This document shows positions 31 to 38,846 of a stretch of 52,087 nt of DNA, piece after piece. How positions within the stretch are numbered: the first letter of the stretch is position 1; every line of letters starts with the position of its first letter. Below the pieces are notes generated by a model that searched no databases, was not told the DNA's origin, and saw only the letters and a list, made by a program, of their open reading frames with translations. The position numbers and the translations under genes were made by a program. Source of the stretch: Chloroflexota bacterium (GTDB lineage Bacteria > Chloroflexota > UBA6077); assembly GCA_021845945.1 (NCBI GenBank), contig JAJZRD010000004.1:1-52087 (forward strand), read 5' to 3'.

Positions 31-95
31 CCTGTAGTAACGACTTCAGTCGTTCGCGACCCGAATGGACGAACGACTGAAGTCGTTACTACAGG
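31..95. repeat. Perfect inverted repeat, copy 1
   Basis: The arms at 31-55 and 71-95 are exact 25-base reverse complements around a 15-base loop. The core of the arm reads GTAGTAACGACTTCAGTCGT. A second, slightly degenerate copy lies at 16,056-16,114 between livH and livM, so this is an interspersed element and not a feature of the rRNA operon. It lies 3' of the hairpin that follows the 23S gene. Confidence 0.9.
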
Positions 96-112: not shown

Positions 113-144
113 GGGGCTCCGCCTGCTGAGGCAGGCGGAGCCCC
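113..144 (-). terminator. Strong hairpin after the 23S gene, probable operon end
   Basis: A perfect 14-bp stem (113-126 with 131-144) closes a TGAG loop; the stem begins GGGGCTCCGCCTGC. It lies about 50 bases after the 23S 3' end in the direction of transcription. There is no T-tract after it, so it is not a textbook intrinsic terminator; its position and strength make it the likely 3' boundary of the rRNA transcript. Confidence 0.6.
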
Positions 145-150
145 TCTCCA

Positions 151-176
151 CACCTTCACAACCAGATAACTTCCAT
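151..176 (-). other. 3' arm of the 23S precursor processing stem
   Basis: This 26-base stretch is complementary to 3,199-3,224, upstream of the 23S 5' end, with only two positions that form G-U pairs. In bacteria the sequences around 23S pair to form the RNase III substrate, so the two arms mark a processing stalk that is still intact. Confidence 0.8.
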
Positions 177-194
177 CCCGTCGAGCACCAGCTC

Positions 195-3177
<2,983 letters not shown>

Positions 3178-3322
3178 TACTGCTGACTCGTGAGCGGAAT
3201 GGAAGCTATCTGGTTGTAAAGGTGCGGGCCGACAGTGGTGAGAGGGCGAGGCGCCTCGAGAGAGGCGTGAGGGATTACTCGAACTGTCCGGCAACACGAG
3301 CGGGACTTAGCCCGTCGTGCCG
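3178..3322 (-). other. 16S-23S internal transcribed spacer, no tRNA
   Basis: This spacer of about 145 bases has no tRNA-like cloverleaf on either strand. It holds one arm of each precursor stem. 3,199-3,224 pairs with 151-176 around the 23S. 3,232-3,248 (ACAGTGGTGAGAGGGCG on the plus strand) is an exact 17-base complement of 4,889-4,905 in the 16S leader, and the pairing continues imperfectly toward the 16S ends (3,249-3,275 with about 4,865-4,888). Confidence 0.75.
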
Positions 3323-4865
3323 GAAAGGCACTTGCCGGCCGCACCTTCCGGTACGGCCACCTTGCTACGCCCGTATCCCTGATTACCGTCTCCACCCTCG
3401 CCCCACCGTCCTCGCTAACCTCACGGTTAGCGGGGGCAAGCAGGCCTTCGGGGGAGTCGGCATTCGGGACACGGCGGACTAGATGTGCGAGACCTAGGGA
3501 CACATTCACCGCCGTATGGCTGACCGGCGGTTACTAGCGGCTCCACGTTCATGCAGGCGAGTTGCAGCCTGCAATCCCAACTGAGACCGGCTTTTTGGGT
3601 TTAGCTCCGCCTCGCGGCTTGGCATCCCTTTGTACCGGTCATTGTAGCACGTGTGAAGCCCAGGGCATTAAGGCCATGCCGACTGGTCGTCGTCCCCTCC
3701 TTCCTCCGGGTTTCCCGGCGGTCCCGCTAGAGGGTCCCTCACTGAGGAGGGACAACTAACAGCGAGGGTTTCGCTCGTTCTGGGGCTGAGCCCAACGTCT
3801 CACGACACGAGCTGACGGCAGCCATTCAGCCCCTGTGTCGGCTCCCGCCTTTACGGGTCGTTCCCGTTTCCGGGTCCTACTTCCGGCATCCAGCCCTGGT
3901 AAGGTTCTACGGTCAGGTTCGGATTAACCCACGTGCTCCGCCGCTGGTGTAGATCTTCGTCAATTCCTTTGGGTTTCAGCCTTGCGGCCGTAGTTCCCCA
4001 GGCGGGGCACTTAGCGCGTTAGCTGCGACCTAGAGGGGGTCAACGCCCCCCGGGTCTAGTGCCCATCGTTTACTGCGTGGACTACCGGGGTTTCCTAATC
4101 CCGTTCGCTCCCCACGCCTTCGCGCCTCAGCGTCAGGAACAGTCTAGGAGGCCGCCTTCGCTACTGGGGTTCTTCCCGGTATCATCGCATTTCACCGCTA
4201 CTCCGGGAGTTCCACCTCCTCCGGCTGCCCTCATAGCGATACGGTATCGGCCGCCCTTCCCCGGTTGAGCCGGGGGCTTTCACGGCCGACGGGTACCACC
4301 GCCTACGCGCTCTTTACGCCCAGTTAGACCGGACAACGCTTGCCCCCCACGTATTGTCGCGAATGCTGACACGTAGTTGTTCGGGGCTTATTCGCCGGGT
4401 ACCGTCAAGCCCCAACGGGGGCCTTCTTCCCCGGCAAAAGGAGTTTACGACCCGAAGGCCTTCCTCCTCCACGCGGCGTCGCTGCGTCAGGCTTTCGCCC
4501 ATTGCGCAAGATCCCCTGCTGCTGCCTCCCGTAGGAGTCGGGGCCATGTCTCAGTCCCCGTCTGGCTGGCCGTCCTCTCAGACCAGCTACCCGTTATCGG
4601 TTTGGTGGGCCGTTACCCCGCCAACTGCCTGATGGGGCGCGGGTCCCTCCCCAAACGCCGTCTGGGCTTTAGCCGCCGGGCCTAGTACCCGGAGGCCACA
4701 TGGGGGATTTACCGGCCTTTCGGCCGAATGTCCCCCGCTTGGGGGCAGGTTGCCCACGTGTTACTCAAACGTCTGCCACTGGCCGGCTTTCACCGGCCCG
4801 TTCGACTTGCATGCATGAAGCACGCCGCCAGCGTTCGTCCTGGGCCAGGATCGAACCCATCAGAG
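3323..4865 (-). rRNA. 16S ribosomal RNA (divergent, non-canonical decoding centre)
   Basis: The reverse complement aligns along its whole length with 16S: a 27F-like start (GGTTCGATCCTGGCCCAG), the 338 and 785 primer regions, and helix 45 with its GGAA tetraloop. Length is about 1,540. Sites that are normally invariant differ. The 530 loop reads GUGUCAGCAUUCGCGACAA (C518U, G524U, C525U, G530A, U531C), with G506A and C507A restoring the pseudoknot pairs. The 1404-1412 strand reads CGCCGUGUC and the 1488-1497 strand GAUACGGGCG, so A1492 and A1493 become C and G while the flanking pairs covary. The 964-972 loop reads AACCUGACC for AUGCAACGC. The 3' tail after GGUGCGGC is CGGCAAGUGCCUUUCC in place of UGGAUCACCUCCUUUC, so the CCUCC anti-SD is absent. 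Numbering is by eye against E. coli. Confidence 0.9.
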
Positions 4866-5306
4866 TGACGCCTCTCGTCGAGATGCCGCGCCCTCTCACC
4901 ACTGTTCGGCTGTTAAGGTTCGCGCCGGTCGCTCCGGCGACCGTTGCGTCTTATGTCAAGCGCACGTCCCGTGCCACCGGTTCCCTCTGCCGCTTCCCCC
5001 TCGCGGGGGTTTCTCGTCCCCCCCATTCGGGGGATCCTGACCGCCAACCGGTGCCGGAAAAACCCCCAGTGTCGCACAGGCCATGCCATGGGATTCGCCG
5101 CGATTCCCGGGGTTTCCATCGCACGGTGGCTCGCCCTCCCGCCTCCTCGGTCGCGGGGGTGGCATGAGACTGGGCCAGGTGCTAGGATCGTGGGTGCCCC
5201 CGCCTCCTCGGTCGCGCGGGTGGCATGCTCGTTGCTCAGCAGCTTTCTGCCTTCAGCGGTCAGCCTGGATCCCCTGCTGAAAGCTGATGGCTGAACGCTG
5301 ACAGCT
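4866..5306. promoter_or_regulatory. rRNA leader and divergent promoter region
   Basis: This 440-base gap separates the 16S 5' end (minus) from the BON gene (plus). It holds the leader arm of the 16S processing stem (4,889-4,905), a hairpin with 7-bp arms CGGTCGC/GCGACCG at 4,926-4,943, and a TTGACA hexamer on the minus strand at 4,954-4,959. No convincing -10 element lies 16-18 bases from that hexamer, so I do not call the promoter. A direct repeat lies at 5,140-5,227, and a GCTGATGGCTGAACGCTGAC-type interspersed repeat at about 5,283-5,306. Confidence 0.5.
5140..5227. repeat. Two 27-bp direct repeats, 61 bp apart
   Basis: 5,140-5,166 and 5,201-5,227 differ at one base; both contain GCCTCCTCGGTCGCG followed by GGGTGGCATG. 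They are upstream of the rRNA leader and upstream of the BON gene. They could be a duplicated protein-binding site for the rRNA promoter region or a plain tandem duplication; nothing in the sequence decides this. Confidence 0.7.
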
Positions 5307-6008
5307 GTGGAAACGCCGATGGCTGAACGGTTGACGGACGATAAGATAGCCTCTGAGGTACGGCACGCCCTGGACCACGATTCCCGCCTCCGACCGGAGG
5401 GGATATCGGTCCAGGTGCAGCGGGGTGTGGTGACCCTAACCGGAACGGTCGGCCGCTACGTCGACAAGATGGTGGCCGCCGAGGATGCCTGGCGGACCAA
5501 GGGAGTGGCCGAGGTGAGGAACGGGCTCCAGGTCAAGCCCGACCTGCTCCGGCCGGCCGACGAGATCGCCGCGGACATCGCCACGGCTCTGGCCGGCGAC
5601 CCCCGAGTGGATGATCGGGGCGTGGTGGTCAATGTGGCCGAGGGGATAGTGCGGCTGTCCGGCACCGTCTCCAGCGAGGCGGAGCGCAGGGCCGCCGAGG
5701 ATGACAGCTGGCGAACGGACGGGGTGGTGGACGTCTCCAACGAGCTCACCATCTCCGCGGACCGGCGGCGCCCGGATCACGAGATAGAGCAGGACGTGAG
5801 GGCAGCGCTGGATAGCGACGCCCGCATCTCCGATCCCACCCAGATCACGGCGAAATCGGTGGCCGGCACCCTCCGCCTTCAGGGCACCGTGGCCAGCGTC
5901 GAGGAGCGCCAGGCGGCCGAGAGGGATGGCTGGTACACCGCCGGAGTCGTCTACGTGGAGAACCTGCTGACCATCGCTGGAAGACGGCAGCGGCCGGCGG
6001 CGGCCTGA
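5307..6008 (+). CDS. Triple BON-domain protein
   Basis: This 233-residue protein consists of three consecutive BON domains (about residues 10-75, 83-150 and 156-226). Each follows the pattern of a charged helix, then V-x-G-x-V-x-L-x-G-T-V and a second helix ending in G-V-x-x-V-x-N. BON domains are thought to bind phospholipid or other surfaces; OsmY-type proteins carry two and act in the envelope under osmotic stress. No signal peptide is visible, so this copy is probably cytoplasmic. The listed start is GTG; an ATG at 5,319 is equally possible, and neither has a good ribosome binding site. The gene ends 10 bases before dcd on the same strand, so the two are probably cotranscribed, divergently from the rRNA operon. 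Confidence 0.85.
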   Translation: METPMAERLTDDKIASEVRHALDHDSRLRPEGISVQVQRGVVTLTGTVGRYVDKMVAAEDAWRTKGVAEVRNGLQVKPDLLRPADEIAADIATALAGDPRVDDRGVVVNVAEGIVRLSGTVSSEAERRAAEDDSWRTDGVVDVSNELTISADRRRPDHEIEQDVRAALDSDARISDPTQITAKSVAGTLRLQGTVASVEERQAAERDGWYTAGVVYVENLLTIAGRRQRPAAA

Positions 6009-6018
6009 GAGGACGAGC

Positions 6019-6531
6019 ATGTCGATACTGACCCACGACGAGATCCTGAGGCTGATCCGGGAGGGATCCATCCGGATAGAGCCCTTCTCCGAGGATCAGG
6101 TAGGCCCGGCCTCGGTGGACCTGCACCTGGACAACAAGTTCCGGGTCTTCCGGGCCCTGCCCCACATCCACCCGGTCACCGAGGACGCCAGCTTCGAGGA
6201 CCTCACGGAGCTGATCGAGGTGGACGACCATCTGCTGCTGATGCCGGGCCAGGCCGTCCACGGGATCACCGTCGAGCGGATAACCCTACCCGACAGCCTG
6301 TGTGGCTGGCTGGAGGGGCGGAGCCGCTTCGCCCGGGTGGGGCTGATGGTCCACATGACGGCCAGCTTCATGCAGCCGGGCATCTCCAACAAGCAGGTGC
6401 TGGAGATGATCAACGTGGGACCGGTACCCCTGGCCATCTACCCTGGCACCGCCATCTGCCAGTTCATCTTCCAGGAGTGCAAGGGGCGTGCCCACTACCA
6501 CGGCCGCTTCGAGAACCAGGTGATGCCCTGA
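6019..6531 (+). CDS. dcd: dCTP deaminase
   Basis: This 170-residue protein matches the trimeric dCTP deaminase/dUTPase fold, which converts dCTP to dUTP plus ammonia and so feeds dTMP synthesis. Visible signatures are VGPASVDLHLDN near residue 28, LEGRSRFARVGLMVHMTA near 98 (the GRSS-type phosphate-binding motif), VLEMINVG near 128 with the catalytic-type Glu, and PGTAICQFIFQ near 142. The GISNKQ insertion before the Glu resembles archaeal and deep-branching bacterial enzymes. Start chosen: ATG behind AGAGGACGAGC. Whether it also hydrolyses dUTP (bifunctional type) cannot be told by eye. Confidence 0.9.
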   Translation: MSILTHDEILRLIREGSIRIEPFSEDQVGPASVDLHLDNKFRVFRALPHIHPVTEDASFEDLTELIEVDDHLLLMPGQAVHGITVERITLPDSLCGWLEGRSRFARVGLMVHMTASFMQPGISNKQVLEMINVGPVPLAIYPGTAICQFIFQECKGRAHYHGRFENQVMP

Positions 6532-6809
6532 CCGGACGCGGGGACACGGAGACGCGGAGAAGGACGAACAGGATAGACAGGATTGTCAGGATTGTCAGGA
6601 TAGACACCACTGCTTCGCCACGGTGAAGGTGATGGGTACTGTCATGCTGAGCGAAGCGAAGCATCTCCCTGCGGCCGGAGATCCTTCGCTATCACTCAGG
6701 ATGACACCTAATTGCTCAGGATGACACCTATCAGGATCTACGTGTCGGAGCAGTACGGCTTATTCCTGAATATCCTGCATATTCTGTTTGGTTTCTCCTC
6801 CGTCGGGAG
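6532..6809. repeat. Intergenic repeat cluster between dcd and tctA
   Basis: No gene is seen. It contains short tandem units (GGATAGACAGGATTGTCAGG near 6,570-6,605), an element GTCATGCTGAGCGAAGCGAA near 6,643 whose relatives occur at 33,290-33,405, and a doubled CTCAGGATGACACCTA at about 6,696-6,731. A weak hairpin (GAATAT/ATATTC, about 6,767-6,783) lies after the convergent tctA stop and could help end both transcripts. Confidence 0.6.
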
Positions 6810-28118: not shown

Positions 28119-28997
28119 ATGCTGCGATTCTCGGGAGGAAGGGCAGTATTCGGCAAGGCTATCAGGGTAGCCCTGGCGCTGGCCCTGTGCGCGTCCTGCC
28201 TTGTGGCACCGGCACCAACGGCAACCGCCGCCTCGGCCGGCAACGGCCCGGAGGATCGGGAACTGGAAAGCAGCCTGACAGACTACCTTTCGGGCCTGGA
28301 CGGGGTCTGCGGGGTCGCGGCCGTCAATCTGAAAGATGGTCGAACCGTGTCGATCGACGCGGACAGCTCTTTCCCCACGGCAAGCATGTACAAGCTGTTC
28401 GTGATGTACCGGGTGTTCCAGGCCTTGGATAGGGGTAGCCTCTCCCCGAACGACACTGTGACCATCGAAGAGGACGACGTGATCCAGGATGAGCCCGACG
28501 GGGGGTTCGCCCCAGACGACACCCCGACGGTCAGCAAAGCCCTCGAGGCCATGATCACCCTCAGCAGCAACGCGGCGGCCCTCGCCCTCACTCGCGACAT
28601 CGGCGGGTGGCCGGAGGTCGAGTCGGCTGCCCGGGAGTTGGGGATGACCAACACCACCACGGTGGACGGCGACCTCTGGAGCACCCCCAGCGACATGGCT
28701 CACTTCTTTCAGCTGCTGGCGAGCCAATCCCTGGTCGGCAAGAGCGCCAGCGTGAAGATGATCGGCCTGCTGCTCCAGCAGACGGTCAACGACCGGCTGC
28801 CTGCGCTGCTACCCCCCGAGGCCGCCGTCGCACACAAGACGGGAGAGCTGGACGACGTGTGGAACGACGCCGGCATCGTCTATGGAACCGGGGGGAGCTA
28901 CGTCATCGTGGTGATGAGCCGTGGGGGCACCCCGGAGGACGAGATACGGGCCGAGGCGGAGCTATCCCAAATGGTGTACGCCCAGTACGGGAAATAG
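28119..28997 (+). CDS. Class A beta-lactamase-fold serine hydrolase, exported
   Basis: This 292-residue protein has a signal peptide (about 1-38) and the penicillin-recognising fold: Ser-x-x-Lys at S89-K92 (ASMYK), SSN at 149-151 in the place of SDN, and KTG at 240-242. The omega loop that would carry the general base Glu (ExxLN) is not visible; that segment reads TTTVDGDLWSTPSDMA. It may therefore be a peptidoglycan enzyme or a weak hydrolase and not a true resistance lactamase. The ATG is preceded by AGGGGG. It lies between the acidic ORF and Usp, all on the plus strand. Confidence 0.85.
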   Translation: MLRFSGGRAVFGKAIRVALALALCASCLVAPAPTATAASAGNGPEDRELESSLTDYLSGLDGVCGVAAVNLKDGRTVSIDADSSFPTASMYKLFVMYRVFQALDRGSLSPNDTVTIEEDDVIQDEPDGGFAPDDTPTVSKALEAMITLSSNAAALALTRDIGGWPEVESAARELGMTNTTTVDGDLWSTPSDMAHFFQLLASQSLVGKSASVKMIGLLLQQTVNDRLPALLPPEAAVAHKTGELDDVWNDAGIVYGTGGSYVIVVMSRGGTPEDEIRAEAELSQMVYAQYGK

Positions 28998-36479: not shown

Positions 36480-38846
36480 TCAGGCGGGAACCCTGAGCCT
36501 CCTTCTCTCCTCCTCGGGGGTCTCACCCTCGGCCGTCGGTGACTCCTCCTGGGCCTTTCGCTGATGGAAGAAAGCGGTCACCGTGAACCAGGCCAGGGGC
36601 ATGACCCCGATCCCGATGAAGACGCTGTCGGGGAGGATCCGCGCCCACAGCAGCGCATGGACCAGCGGCTGCTGGTAGAACTGGAAGCTCCTGGCCGACC
36701 AGAAGCCGTTGGTGAAGCTCTCCCCCACCTGCATCAGCCCGATGGGCAGCAGGGTGATCAGGATCATCCCCGCCAGGCCGAGGTTCAGCCCCCAGAAGGA
36801 GATCTTCAGCAGCCGATCGCTCCACCACCGGGGGTTCACCAGGTCGCGCAGGGCGAACAGCAGCAGACCGATGGCCAGCATCCCGTACACCCCCGCCAGC
36901 GCCCCGTGGCCGTGGGCCGCCGTCAGGAAGGAGCCGTGCTCGAAGTAGTTCACCGCCGGCAGGTTGATCAGGAAGCCCAGCACCCCCGCGCCGACCAGGT
37001 TCCAGACGGATGTAGCGATCAGGAACCAGAAGGAGGCCCTGTAGGGGAACTCCCGGCCGCCCGCCGTCACCATCCTGTACTGGCCGTAGGCCTCCAGCAC
37101 CAGCAGGGTCAGGGGGATCACCTCCAGGGCCGAGAAGACGGCCCCCAGGGAGATCCACATGTCCGGTGCGCCGATCCAGTAGTAGTGGTGGCCGGTGCCG
37201 AGGATGCCGCTGCCCAGCAGGATTATCAGCTGGAAGTAGAGGGCCCGAAGGGTGGAGTTCTTGGTCACCAGTCCCAGCCTCACCATCAGGAAGCCGATGA
37301 CCACCACGGCGAACACCTCGAACATCCCCTCCACCCAGAGGTGGATCACCCACCAGCGCCAGTAGTCCGACATGGTGATGTGGGTGCTGGGATCGAACAG
37401 GAAGCCGAAGCCGTAGAAGAAGGGGATGGCCACGGCGCTGTAGAACAGCAGGTGGGTGAGGCCGCCCTTATCCGACTCGGTCTTCATGGCGGGCCGCAGC
37501 CCCCGGTAGACGATGAAGAGCCACATCACCATCCCGACGGCCAGCAGGAGCTGCCAGATCCTGCCCAGCTCCAGGTAAGCCCAGCCCTGGTTGCCCAGCA
37601 GGAACCAGAGGTTGCCCAGGAAGCCCTTGGCGCCCAGCCACTCGCCCAGCAAGCTTCCCACCACGACCAGCACCAGGGCCCCGAAGAGGAGATCCACCAG
37701 CAGCCCCTGCCGCTTCGGCTCGCGGCCCCCCACCAGGGGCGCCACGAAGATCCCCAGGGCCAGCCAGGCGGTGGCGATCCAGAAGATGGCCAGCTGCAGG
37801 TGCCAGCTGCGGGCGATGTTGAAGGGCAGCAGCGCCAGAATGTCCATGCCGTAGAAGCTGTCGCCCTGGGCGTAGTAGTGAGCCAGCAGCGCGCCCACCA
37901 GGGTTTGGGCCAGGAAGAGCAAGGTTACCACGGCGAAGTACTTGGCGGTCTTCCGCTGGCTGGGGGTCAGCGGAGCGTCGCTCAGCTTGAGCGTCTTGGC
38001 CGCTTCGGGGTTCTCCTCCATGTACATCCGGTAGCGGTGGTAGAGGAAGAGGATCACCCCGACGAACAGCACCAGAAGGGTCACGCTGATGGCGCTCCAG
38101 ATCACCGAGCTGAAGGTCAGGGTGTTGCCCGCCGCGGCGTCGAAGGGCCAGTTGTTGGTGAAGGAGTAGCTGAGGCCCGGCCGATCCACCGTGGAGAGCC
38201 AGGCGGTCCAGGTGAAGAAGTCCGCGATCTGCCGGATCTGGTCCCCCGGCGCCACGTAGGCCCGATCGGTCGCGGGCATGTGCTGCTCCTGGATCAACTG
38301 CGGCGGCAGCGCCCGCTCCGGGTCGCCCTGGGTGAACATCTGCCGGTAGTGAGCCCGCACCTGCTCCAGCCCATAGGCCTGGGCCGCGCTGAGGGTGAGG
38401 GTACCGGTGGCAGCATCGTAGCGATTGGTCTTCAGCTCCTTTTGGACCTTCGCCGTGATGCCGGCCTGCTGCTCGGTACCCAGCCTGGCGAGGTCGACGC
38501 CGTACTGGGCGCGAGCGTAGTAGTCCTGCATGGAGAGGGTCATCACGTGGAGACTGTCGGCGGTGAAGTCGGGCCCCAGGTAGGAGCCATGGCCCAGGGT
38601 GGAGCCGTAGTCCATCAGGTCGTACTTCTGGTACACGGCCTTGCCGCCGGAGATCTCCTGGCCGGTGGAGAGGAGCTTTCCGGACTCGTCGACGATCTTG
38701 TTGGGGATGGGTGCCTGGTCCCGATAGACGGCGAAGCCCCCCATGACGAGGCCTGTGAAGCCGAGGAGGATCACCAGGATGAGGGCGTGCTTCCAGAGAC
38801 CGACCCCGCCCCTCGGCGGGCTTGTCTGCGCAGCGGTAACAGCCAT
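36480..38846 (-). CDS. norZ: Quinol-dependent nitric oxide reductase (qNor)
   Basis: This 788-residue NorB/NorC fusion reduces two NO to N2O with electrons from quinol. The N-terminal extension (about 25-240) has the NorC-like extracytoplasmic domain without CxxCH, as in qNOR. The NorB core keeps all ligand residues: H349 (SWHLQL), H502 and E506 (HLWVEG), H553/H554 (TGHHYYWIG) and H645/H647 (AHGHG), with the cNOR spacing of 51 between H502 and H553. About 14 helices. The product protects against or respires NO; no other denitrification gene is in the window. The gene has its own promoter region (38,896-38,961) below the radical SAM gene. Confidence 0.95.
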   Translation of the reverse strand: MAVTAAQTSPPRGGVGLWKHALILVILLGFTGLVMGGFAVYRDQAPIPNKIVDESGKLLSTGQEISGGKAVYQKYDLMDYGSTLGHGSYLGPDFTADSLHVMTLSMQDYYARAQYGVDLARLGTEQQAGITAKVQKELKTNRYDAATGTLTLSAAQAYGLEQVRAHYRQMFTQGDPERALPPQLIQEQHMPATDRAYVAPGDQIRQIADFFTWTAWLSTVDRPGLSYSFTNNWPFDAAAGNTLTFSSVIWSAISVTLLVLFVGVILFLYHRYRMYMEENPEAAKTLKLSDAPLTPSQRKTAKYFAVVTLLFLAQTLVGALLAHYYAQGDSFYGMDILALLPFNIARSWHLQLAIFWIATAWLALGIFVAPLVGGREPKRQGLLVDLLFGALVLVVVGSLLGEWLGAKGFLGNLWFLLGNQGWAYLELGRIWQLLLAVGMVMWLFIVYRGLRPAMKTESDKGGLTHLLFYSAVAIPFFYGFGFLFDPSTHITMSDYWRWWVIHLWVEGMFEVFAVVVIGFLMVRLGLVTKNSTLRALYFQLIILLGSGILGTGHHYYWIGAPDMWISLGAVFSALEVIPLTLLVLEAYGQYRMVTAGGREFPYRASFWFLIATSVWNLVGAGVLGFLINLPAVNYFEHGSFLTAAHGHGALAGVYGMLAIGLLLFALRDLVNPRWWSDRLLKISFWGLNLGLAGMILITLLPIGLMQVGESFTNGFWSARSFQFYQQPLVHALLWARILPDSVFIGIGVMPLAWFTVTAFFHQRKAQEESPTAEGETPEEERRRLRVPA

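Follow-up and report, generated by a model that had tools for sequence, protein, structure and literature searches.

What an rRNA operon could be for when its 16S gene has departed from the universal decoding bases is the question raised at the start of the window, the whole stretch of 52,087 nucleotides of a Chloroflexota contig (JAJZRD010000004.1) analysed here. To our knowledge G530, A1492, A1493, the P-loop and the PTC are fixed in all ribosomes, and in the window the three 16S bases are A530, C1492 and G1493. A first-pass annotation had placed this gene at 3323..4865, which is off by one; the 16S itself is genuine and full length, occupying 3324..4866 on the reverse strand (read from 4866 to 3324) and aligning to the whole of the RF00177 covariance model (positions 1-1533 of 1533) with 1239.7 bits at a gathering threshold of 50.

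The window 16S was searched in 400 Chloroflexota genomes (the phylum of G002, the Kouleothrix aurantiaca genome), 292 of which matched, and the 30 best of those matches were read together with 8 loci that were fetched. Among the loci read, the genome bins G111 and G215 carry a divergent and a normal 16S, and G159 carries a divergent 16S. These three fall in one order, of 13 genomes, within a class of 29 genomes that includes G095; divergent 16S genes are present in five of the 29, complete in G111, G159 and G215 (the three relatives below) and partial in G247 and G135. Against RF00177 the three relatives' divergent copies score 1178.6-1223.8 bits and two normal 16S genes of the class 1464.5 and 1466.7. 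A signature of the 16S 3' end, which misses copies ending before that point such as those of G247 and G135, was found in 3 of the 400 genomes, all of them carriers already found, and in none of the viral contigs scanned, and a 23S signature was found in none of 199 genomes in the phylum of L001 (Terriglobales). The closest MalQ to that of the window (70%) is encoded by G095, as are six syntenic genes 59-80% identical to those of the window, and the window therefore belongs near this class. No divergent rRNA was matched in G095, nor is there any in the 18 kb read around its pair of BON and NMD3-like genes. We note that the divergent 16S of G215 contains long inserts (L048, 753-2513).

The two strands of the decoding region lie at 3471..3484 (-), corresponding to E. 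coli 1396-1409 and reading A1396 U1397 C1398 U1399 A1400 G1401 U1402 ... C1406 C1407 G1408 U1409, and at 3362..3374 (-), corresponding to 1491-1503 and reading A1491 C1492 G1493 G1494 G1495 ... G1500. The 3' part of the 16S was realigned to RF00177 in shorter stretches, with posterior marks of the highest class across 1487-1500, and this agrees with the first-pass calls of C1406, G1408, U1409, A1491, C1492, G1493 and G1495, and with the pairs 1404/1497, 1405/1496 and 1407/1494 having been described as unchanged. Of three compensated pairs that had been proposed, 1406/1495 and 1409/1491 are indeed new, but the U-A at 1411/1489 is inherited, since normal Chloroflexota copies (L014, L019) already have U1411-A1489. 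An insertion that shifted A1492 and A1493 elsewhere had been named as grounds for abandoning this reading; the alignment holds, and the placement stands because the sole inserted base nearby sits a few positions before the 1487-1500 stretch. A1493 is changed in all four complete copies and A1492 is retained in the three relatives. As judged from the aligned bases, G1408 of the window could perhaps pair with C1492, closing the A-site internal loop and leaving G1493 bulged, and A1408 could pair with U1493 in the three complete relatives.

The altered set reaches far beyond the decoding centre, taking in the 530 loop, the 790 loop, G926, G966, C1054 and the anti-Shine-Dalgarno on the 16S side, and the PTC, P-loop, H69 and GAC, with the SRL in relatives, on the 23S side. 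In the 530 loop and pseudoknot (4351..4382, -) the changes G530A and U531C accompany replacement of 506/525 G-C by A-U and of 507/524 C-G by A-U, such that both sides of each pseudoknot pair are altered and the pairing is kept. A scan of genome contigs for the A530-type 530 loop gave six matches, all chance occurrences in non-rRNA DNA, and the pattern was not encountered in rRNA there. Also altered are A1398, C1399, C1400 and C1402, the 790 loop has gained one base, and the 3' tail (3324..3335, -) lacks the CCUCC anti-Shine-Dalgarno, as do the 16S genes of the three complete relatives.

At 682 columns that are invariant in 29 reference 16S sequences (28 Chloroflexota and E. coli; the partial L030 was left out of this set and of the compensation and tree sets), the window is changed at 77 and G111, G159 and G215 at 65, 67 and 62 respectively, compared with 0-13 for each Chloroflexota reference when left out and 28 for E. 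coli. These changes are concentrated: the window has lost the invariant base at 23 of the 53 sites that we take to form the A/P-site core, versus 46 of 617 elsewhere (p 3.3e-11), and G111, G159 and G215 have lost it at 15, 15 and 14 of 53 versus 43, 46 and 37 of 617 (p at most 1.9e-5). When domains are ranked by the share of invariant sites changed, the 3' minor domain (12-21 of 58) comes first in each of the four copies, and the central domain (4-9 of 148) comes last in three of them.

The 23S gene (189..3179, -) is likewise a full-length divergent paralogue, matching RF02541 over 1-2925 with 2271.7 bits, with changes in the PTC, P-loop and H69. It is separated from the 16S by a spacer (3180..3323, -) in which ARAGORN finds no tRNA genes, and none is found by ARAGORN in the whole window; no 5S is matched in the window, which stops 188 bases past the 23S. 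Within the stretches searched there is no 5S near the operons of the three complete relatives, and those operons have no tRNA either. The PTC bases at 635..636 (-) show C2452A and A2453G, common to the four complete operons, and the P-loop bases G2251, G2252 and G2253 (838..840, -) are all U; G2251 and G2252 pair with the CCA ends of tRNA. Further changes include U2585A, A2602G and A1913C, and among positions 2251/2252, 2451, 2452, 2506, 2585 and 2602 the window keeps A2451 and U2506; A2451 and G2553 are retained in all four complete 23S genes. Over a list of sites that we take to represent the PTC, P-loop and A-loop, the window departs from the invariant base at 16 of 61 and G111, G159 and G215 at 14, 15 and 13, compared with 0 or 1 of 61-62 in five normal 23S genes, each left out in turn. 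With 118-127 of 1289 invariant sites changed in the rest of the 23S of the four divergent copies, the PTC set is altered two to three times as often (p 0.00015-0.0041). In the window the SRL region differs at one of 14 sites with its loop unchanged, and in the relatives at 2 or 3 of 14, loop included; A2058 is kept in the window, and A2058 and A2660/G2661 (SRL) are changed in the three relatives. Pairing in the 23S, which was looked at in the domain V region only, offers a further compensated pair, 2593/2600, which is U-A in E. coli and the five normals and A-U, A-U, G-C and A-U in the four divergent copies. The sequence of G239 was left out of the 23S counts and tree on account of its insertions, and the partial G215C233 served only as a filter in the counts. 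That same-class 23S (L115; G239:C187 24000-31564) has two long intron-like insertions, in the H69 region and near 2501, and a separate insertion of about 68 bases is present in the SRL region of the G111 23S (L044, 5689-8671).

The window and the three relatives form one clade with support 100/100 both in a 16S tree (33 rows) and in a 23S tree (10 rows). In the 16S, 28 of the invariant sites altered in the window are also altered in two or more of these relatives, against 6.2 expected, 19 with the same base; in the 23S the figure is 63 against 15.0 expected, 37 with the same base (five references). That the window operon is real and homologous to rRNA is as good as certain, and it very probably belongs to one old paralogue family. 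An assembly artefact, which the first-pass annotation had allowed for, is very unlikely given the related operons in other genomes; the sequence is likely of metagenomic origin and rRNA is prone to chimeras, but five further genomes carry the family, a BON-domain gene again lying beside it in four of these, and the covariance-model alignments are full length, so that an artefact of assembly or alignment is refuted in practice. In the 16S tree the divergent clade is placed apart from the normal 16S genes of the class (G111, G012), which could reflect an older duplication, acquisition of the copy, or misplacement by a long branch. The normal 16S of G215 groups in the tree with the Kouleothrix set, which makes a mixed bin possible for G215, and in the 23S tree the G111:C100 gene is separated from the rest of the class. 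Two extra 23S genes (L112 and L113, on G111:C100 and G215:C233) join the E. coli side of that tree, perhaps because of binning contamination.

The first-pass argument for structural constraint is supported, with controls, across the 16S and in the relatives. Of 452 helix pairs in the window 16S, 417 are standard, as are 410/447, 404/448 and 404/444 in the relatives, compared with a fraction of 0.897-0.934 in 29 normal Chloroflexota 16S genes and 405/442 in E. coli; these normals are the loci L007-L051 that have both ends, less duplicates and E. coli, and as most come from the 30 best matches to the window 16S they are its nearest normals. Among conserved pairs that have changed, 30 of 38 in the window are still standard, against 15.3 +/- 2.8 expected (2000 draws, maximum 27), and 35/45, 40/50 and 33/44 in the relatives against nulls of 15.9, 20.7 and 16.3, each above all 2000 draws. 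The share of changed pairs that are broken (8/38 in the window; 10/45, 10/50 and 11/44 in the relatives) is larger than in E. coli (4/54) or in six normals (0-3 of 10-29), so that selection on the structure is a little more relaxed than in functional rRNA.

Such figures bear directly on whether the operon is a decaying pseudogene that has retained its helices by chance. Many universal bases have been lost, the broken-pair share exceeds that of working rRNA, insertions are present in the G215 16S and the G111 23S, and in the genome G062 a mere remnant persists, all of which would fit decay. Yet pairing equals that of working 16S and structural constraint has not been lost: the divergent 16S genes of G111, G159 and G215 are 83.8-86.7% identical and their 23S genes 84.0-85.7%, in genomes whose fourfold codon sites barely exceed chance (0.34-0.43 identical in the NMD3-like gene for pairs among these three, chance 0.29-0.31; 0.25-0.43 versus 0.28-0.32 across seven genome pairs). 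Moreover, between genomes the divergent copies resemble each other as closely as normal ones do, at 85.9% for G111 and G215 against 81.3% for their normal copies over about 1000 bases, and the processing stems of the window are intact. Purifying selection is measured in the relatives, and in the window it is seen through pairing and compensation; the divergent operon is in all likelihood selected for structure, and a decaying pseudogene is strongly disfavoured.

The processing stems were identified by an ungapped scan with shuffles, which replaced an earlier duplex-energy test that went beyond shuffles in one of eight flank pairs (the window 23S). A 16S stem of 28 positions joins 4878..4905 (5' arm) with 3232..3259 (3' arm) and scores 60, where the best of 60 shuffles reached 37; the 23S stem joins 3195..3227 with 148..180 (all on the reverse strand) through 33 pairs, G-U allowed and without mismatch, and scores 77, the highest of its 60 shuffles reaching 33. 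In the relatives a 23S stem above all shuffles is present in G159 and G215; none is significant in G111, nor are 16S flank stems in G111, G159 or G215. Immediately after the 23S is a G+C-rich 14-bp hairpin (113..144, -), terminator-like without a T run, which was read from the sequence and is absent from the consensus scan; farther downstream lies an inverted repeat whose 27-bp stem is perfect and encloses an 11-base loop (31..95; 27 pairs versus a maximum of 13 in 100 shuffles), a terminator or a small mobile repeat. The hairpin after the 23S is strong in the window and G159, has 13 pairs in G215, within its shuffles (15), and only 6 in G111. On the operon's strand in the window the consensus scan gave no sigma-70-like promoter.

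Do these cells also hold a normal ribosome? Bins G111, G215 and G135 contain both kinds of 16S, mixed bins being possible, and G159 and G247 gave no match to a normal 16S. When ranked by identity, the closest counterparts of the normal 16S genes in G111 and G215 are other normals from the same class or order, and this holds weakly for a 439-base piece in G135. Shine-Dalgarno-like motifs of at least five bases precede 21 of 45 window ORFs versus 27% in the control (the window counts include some spurious ORFs, among them ones antisense to rRNA), 18/34 in G111 versus 18%, 15/30 in G159 versus 14% and 14/35 in G215 versus 14%; for motifs of at least four bases the excess in the window is slight (76% versus 71%). 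Organisms without an anti-Shine-Dalgarno mostly also lack Shine-Dalgarno motifs (120 of 128 taxids; PMC6107228), and from this pattern and the motifs on the same contigs a normal 16S with an anti-Shine-Dalgarno is expected in these cells. It could be argued instead that the lineage lives on this re-engineered rRNA alone and that the relatives' normal copies are binning errors, as the lack of a matched normal 16S for G159 and G247, the separation of the divergent clade from same-class normals and the placement of the G215 normal 16S with the Kouleothrix set would allow. The motif enrichment, the affinity of the G111 and G215 normals to their own class or order (that of the G135 piece being weak) and the absence of tRNA from these operons and of 5S near those of the relatives make a sole rRNA highly improbable.

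We judge it fairly probable, reading from the rRNA bases themselves, that the product of the window operon is not an ordinary decoding ribosome. One alternative is a specialised translating ribosome that monitors codons in another way and initiates without Shine-Dalgarno pairing, on leaderless or special mRNAs. The retention of A2451 and G2553 in all four copies and of A1492 in the three relatives would suit this, as would the kept fold and the processing stems of the window, and there are precedents in bacteria without an anti-Shine-Dalgarno (PMC6107228) and in Vibrio ribosomes with variant rRNA, which are reported to translate chosen mRNAs (PMC10697612). Set against it are the change of both G2251 and G2252 to U in the window and the changes at U2585, A2602, G530, A1493, C1400 and G926; the divergent copies moreover differ among themselves at these functional sites. 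Nor is there a second ribosomal protein S12: the gene was located in 24 of the 29 class genomes, and every one of these has a single copy. A specialised translating ribosome seems unlikely.

Some of the altered sites are ones that we take to be known drug or toxin targets, namely A1408, changed in the window, A1493, changed in all four copies, and A2058 together with the SRL bases A2660/G2661, changed in the three relatives, raising the idea of a reserve ribosome, poor but resistant, that survives when attacked sites are altered. However, the P-loop and anti-Shine-Dalgarno, which would not be chosen for drug contact, are altered too; the window keeps A2058 and differs at only one of 14 SRL sites; and none of the genes immediately next to the operon was recognised as conferring resistance, a beta-lactamase-like ORF below its family cut-off lying 23 kb away. 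A drug- or toxin-proof reserve is accordingly a very doubtful explanation. The converse idea of an antibiotic decoy was rejected, as several of the sites that we presume to be drug sites are changed and not kept.

On balance we favour a conserved paralogous rRNA operon that makes a ribosome-like, probably non-decoding particle. In this scheme the window carries a paralogous 16S-23S operon of a kind long inherited in one Chloroflexota class, at least some members of which probably also have a normal operon; its transcript would be processed and bound by ordinary ribosomal proteins to give ribosome-like subunits; and these would lack ordinary Shine-Dalgarno-led decoding, given a probably closed A-site loop, changes in the P-loop and PTC, and a missing anti-Shine-Dalgarno. 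More weakly, the particle may serve dormancy or stress by holding ribosomal proteins or hibernation factors.

This last suggestion comes from the NMD3-like and HPF/YfiA genes that neighbour the operon in some relatives. In the window the divergent 16S adjoins, in divergent orientation, a gene for a protein with three BON domains (5307..6008, +; PF04972 in three stretches, 2.5e-41), followed by a dCTP deaminase gene (6019..6531, +; TIGR02274, 1.6e-38). A BON-domain gene adjoins the divergent 16S in this manner in five of six loci (the window, G159, G247, G215 and G135, identified by Pfam in G159 and G215 and by BLAST in G247 and G135), G111 being the exception. Next to BON in G159, G247, G215 and G135 is an NMD3-like BCAM0308 gene, in the place that the dCTP deaminase takes in the window, and an HPF/YfiA gene then follows in G247, G215 and G135. 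The window locus has neither the NMD3-like nor the HPF neighbour, the BON-NMD3-HPF trio of G111 sits on another contig, and G095 has the BON-NMD3 pair. The NMD3-like family occurs in 8 of the 29 class genomes (three over the family cut-off), including all five with a divergent 16S, an overlap that shared ancestry inflates. A dormancy role read from these neighbours is tentative, and we put it at less than even. The fuller picture of a natural pseudo-ribosome, a selected ribosome-shaped RNA that has given up decoding, P-site and peptidyl-transferase functions and is paired with BON, NMD3-like and HPF genes for dormancy or ribosome storage, we regard as evenly balanced.

In G062 a remnant of about 290 bases, consisting of two 23S ends (about 1-87 joined to 3' parts; L139 12282-12570, G062:C288 44281-44569, -), lies just upstream of a BON and NMD3-like pair and may be an operon relic or a small RNA in its own right; its fold is not unusual (z 0.37). 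That only this remnant is kept beside BON-NMD3 indicates that the operon can be lost.

Several known systems invite comparison. The rrnI operon of Vibrio vulnificus is similarly a genome-encoded variant beside normal ones, for which a specialised ribosome is reported, but those I-ribosomes are reported to translate, with preferential synthesis of HspA (PMC10697612), whereas here the decoding site, P-loop, PTC and anti-Shine-Dalgarno are changed. In Scytonema hyalinum the Type 1 operon has divergent 16S and 23S genes with nearly intact secondary structure and is kept across a species group; its within-strain 16S divergence of 7.3-9.0%, termed in 2017 the highest seen without insertions or truncation (PMC5658200), contrasts with the 73.6% identity of divergent and normal 16S within G111. 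Functional centres are not intact in the present family, which sets it apart from divergent intragenomic operons of the Scytonema or Vibrio rrnI type. The 16S genes without an anti-Shine-Dalgarno (128 taxids) share the missing CCUCC tail; 120 of these also lack Shine-Dalgarno motifs (PMC6107228), unlike the enrichment on the contigs studied here. BCAM0308 (lxa locus) NMD3-like and HPF/YfiA proteins belong to known families, here found as neighbours of the divergent operon in some relatives; among the titles and opening abstract lines listed for the open-licence literature searched, we found neither a link of these families to an rRNA operon nor an rRNA operon of this sort.

If the reading is correct, a selected rRNA family with these changes would show that evolution can keep the ribosome scaffold for a different use, or that there is another way to decode, and a pseudo-ribosome would be the ribosome's counterpart of a pseudoenzyme. 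The divergent family makes it testable which parts of rRNA serve folding and protein binding rather than translation. Five common 16S primers, using sequences that we take to be the usual ones, have 2-5 mismatches to the window copy and 0 or 1 to three normal 16S genes, so that standard primers leave a blind spot for such copies.

The remainder of the window resembles an ordinary high-G+C bacterial contig, with TctABC, hut and liv genes, FeoB, MalQ and a NorB-like protein among others. The NorB-like protein (36480-38846; 788 aa) has NorB cytochrome c-like and COX1 domains and is likely a quinol-type nitric oxide reductase. The class A beta-lactamase-like ORF, 23 kb from the operon, lies at 28119-28997 (112.5 bits, under the family cut-off of 200), and short imperfect repeats (ggattgtcaggat-like) follow the dCTP deaminase gene at 6540-6780.
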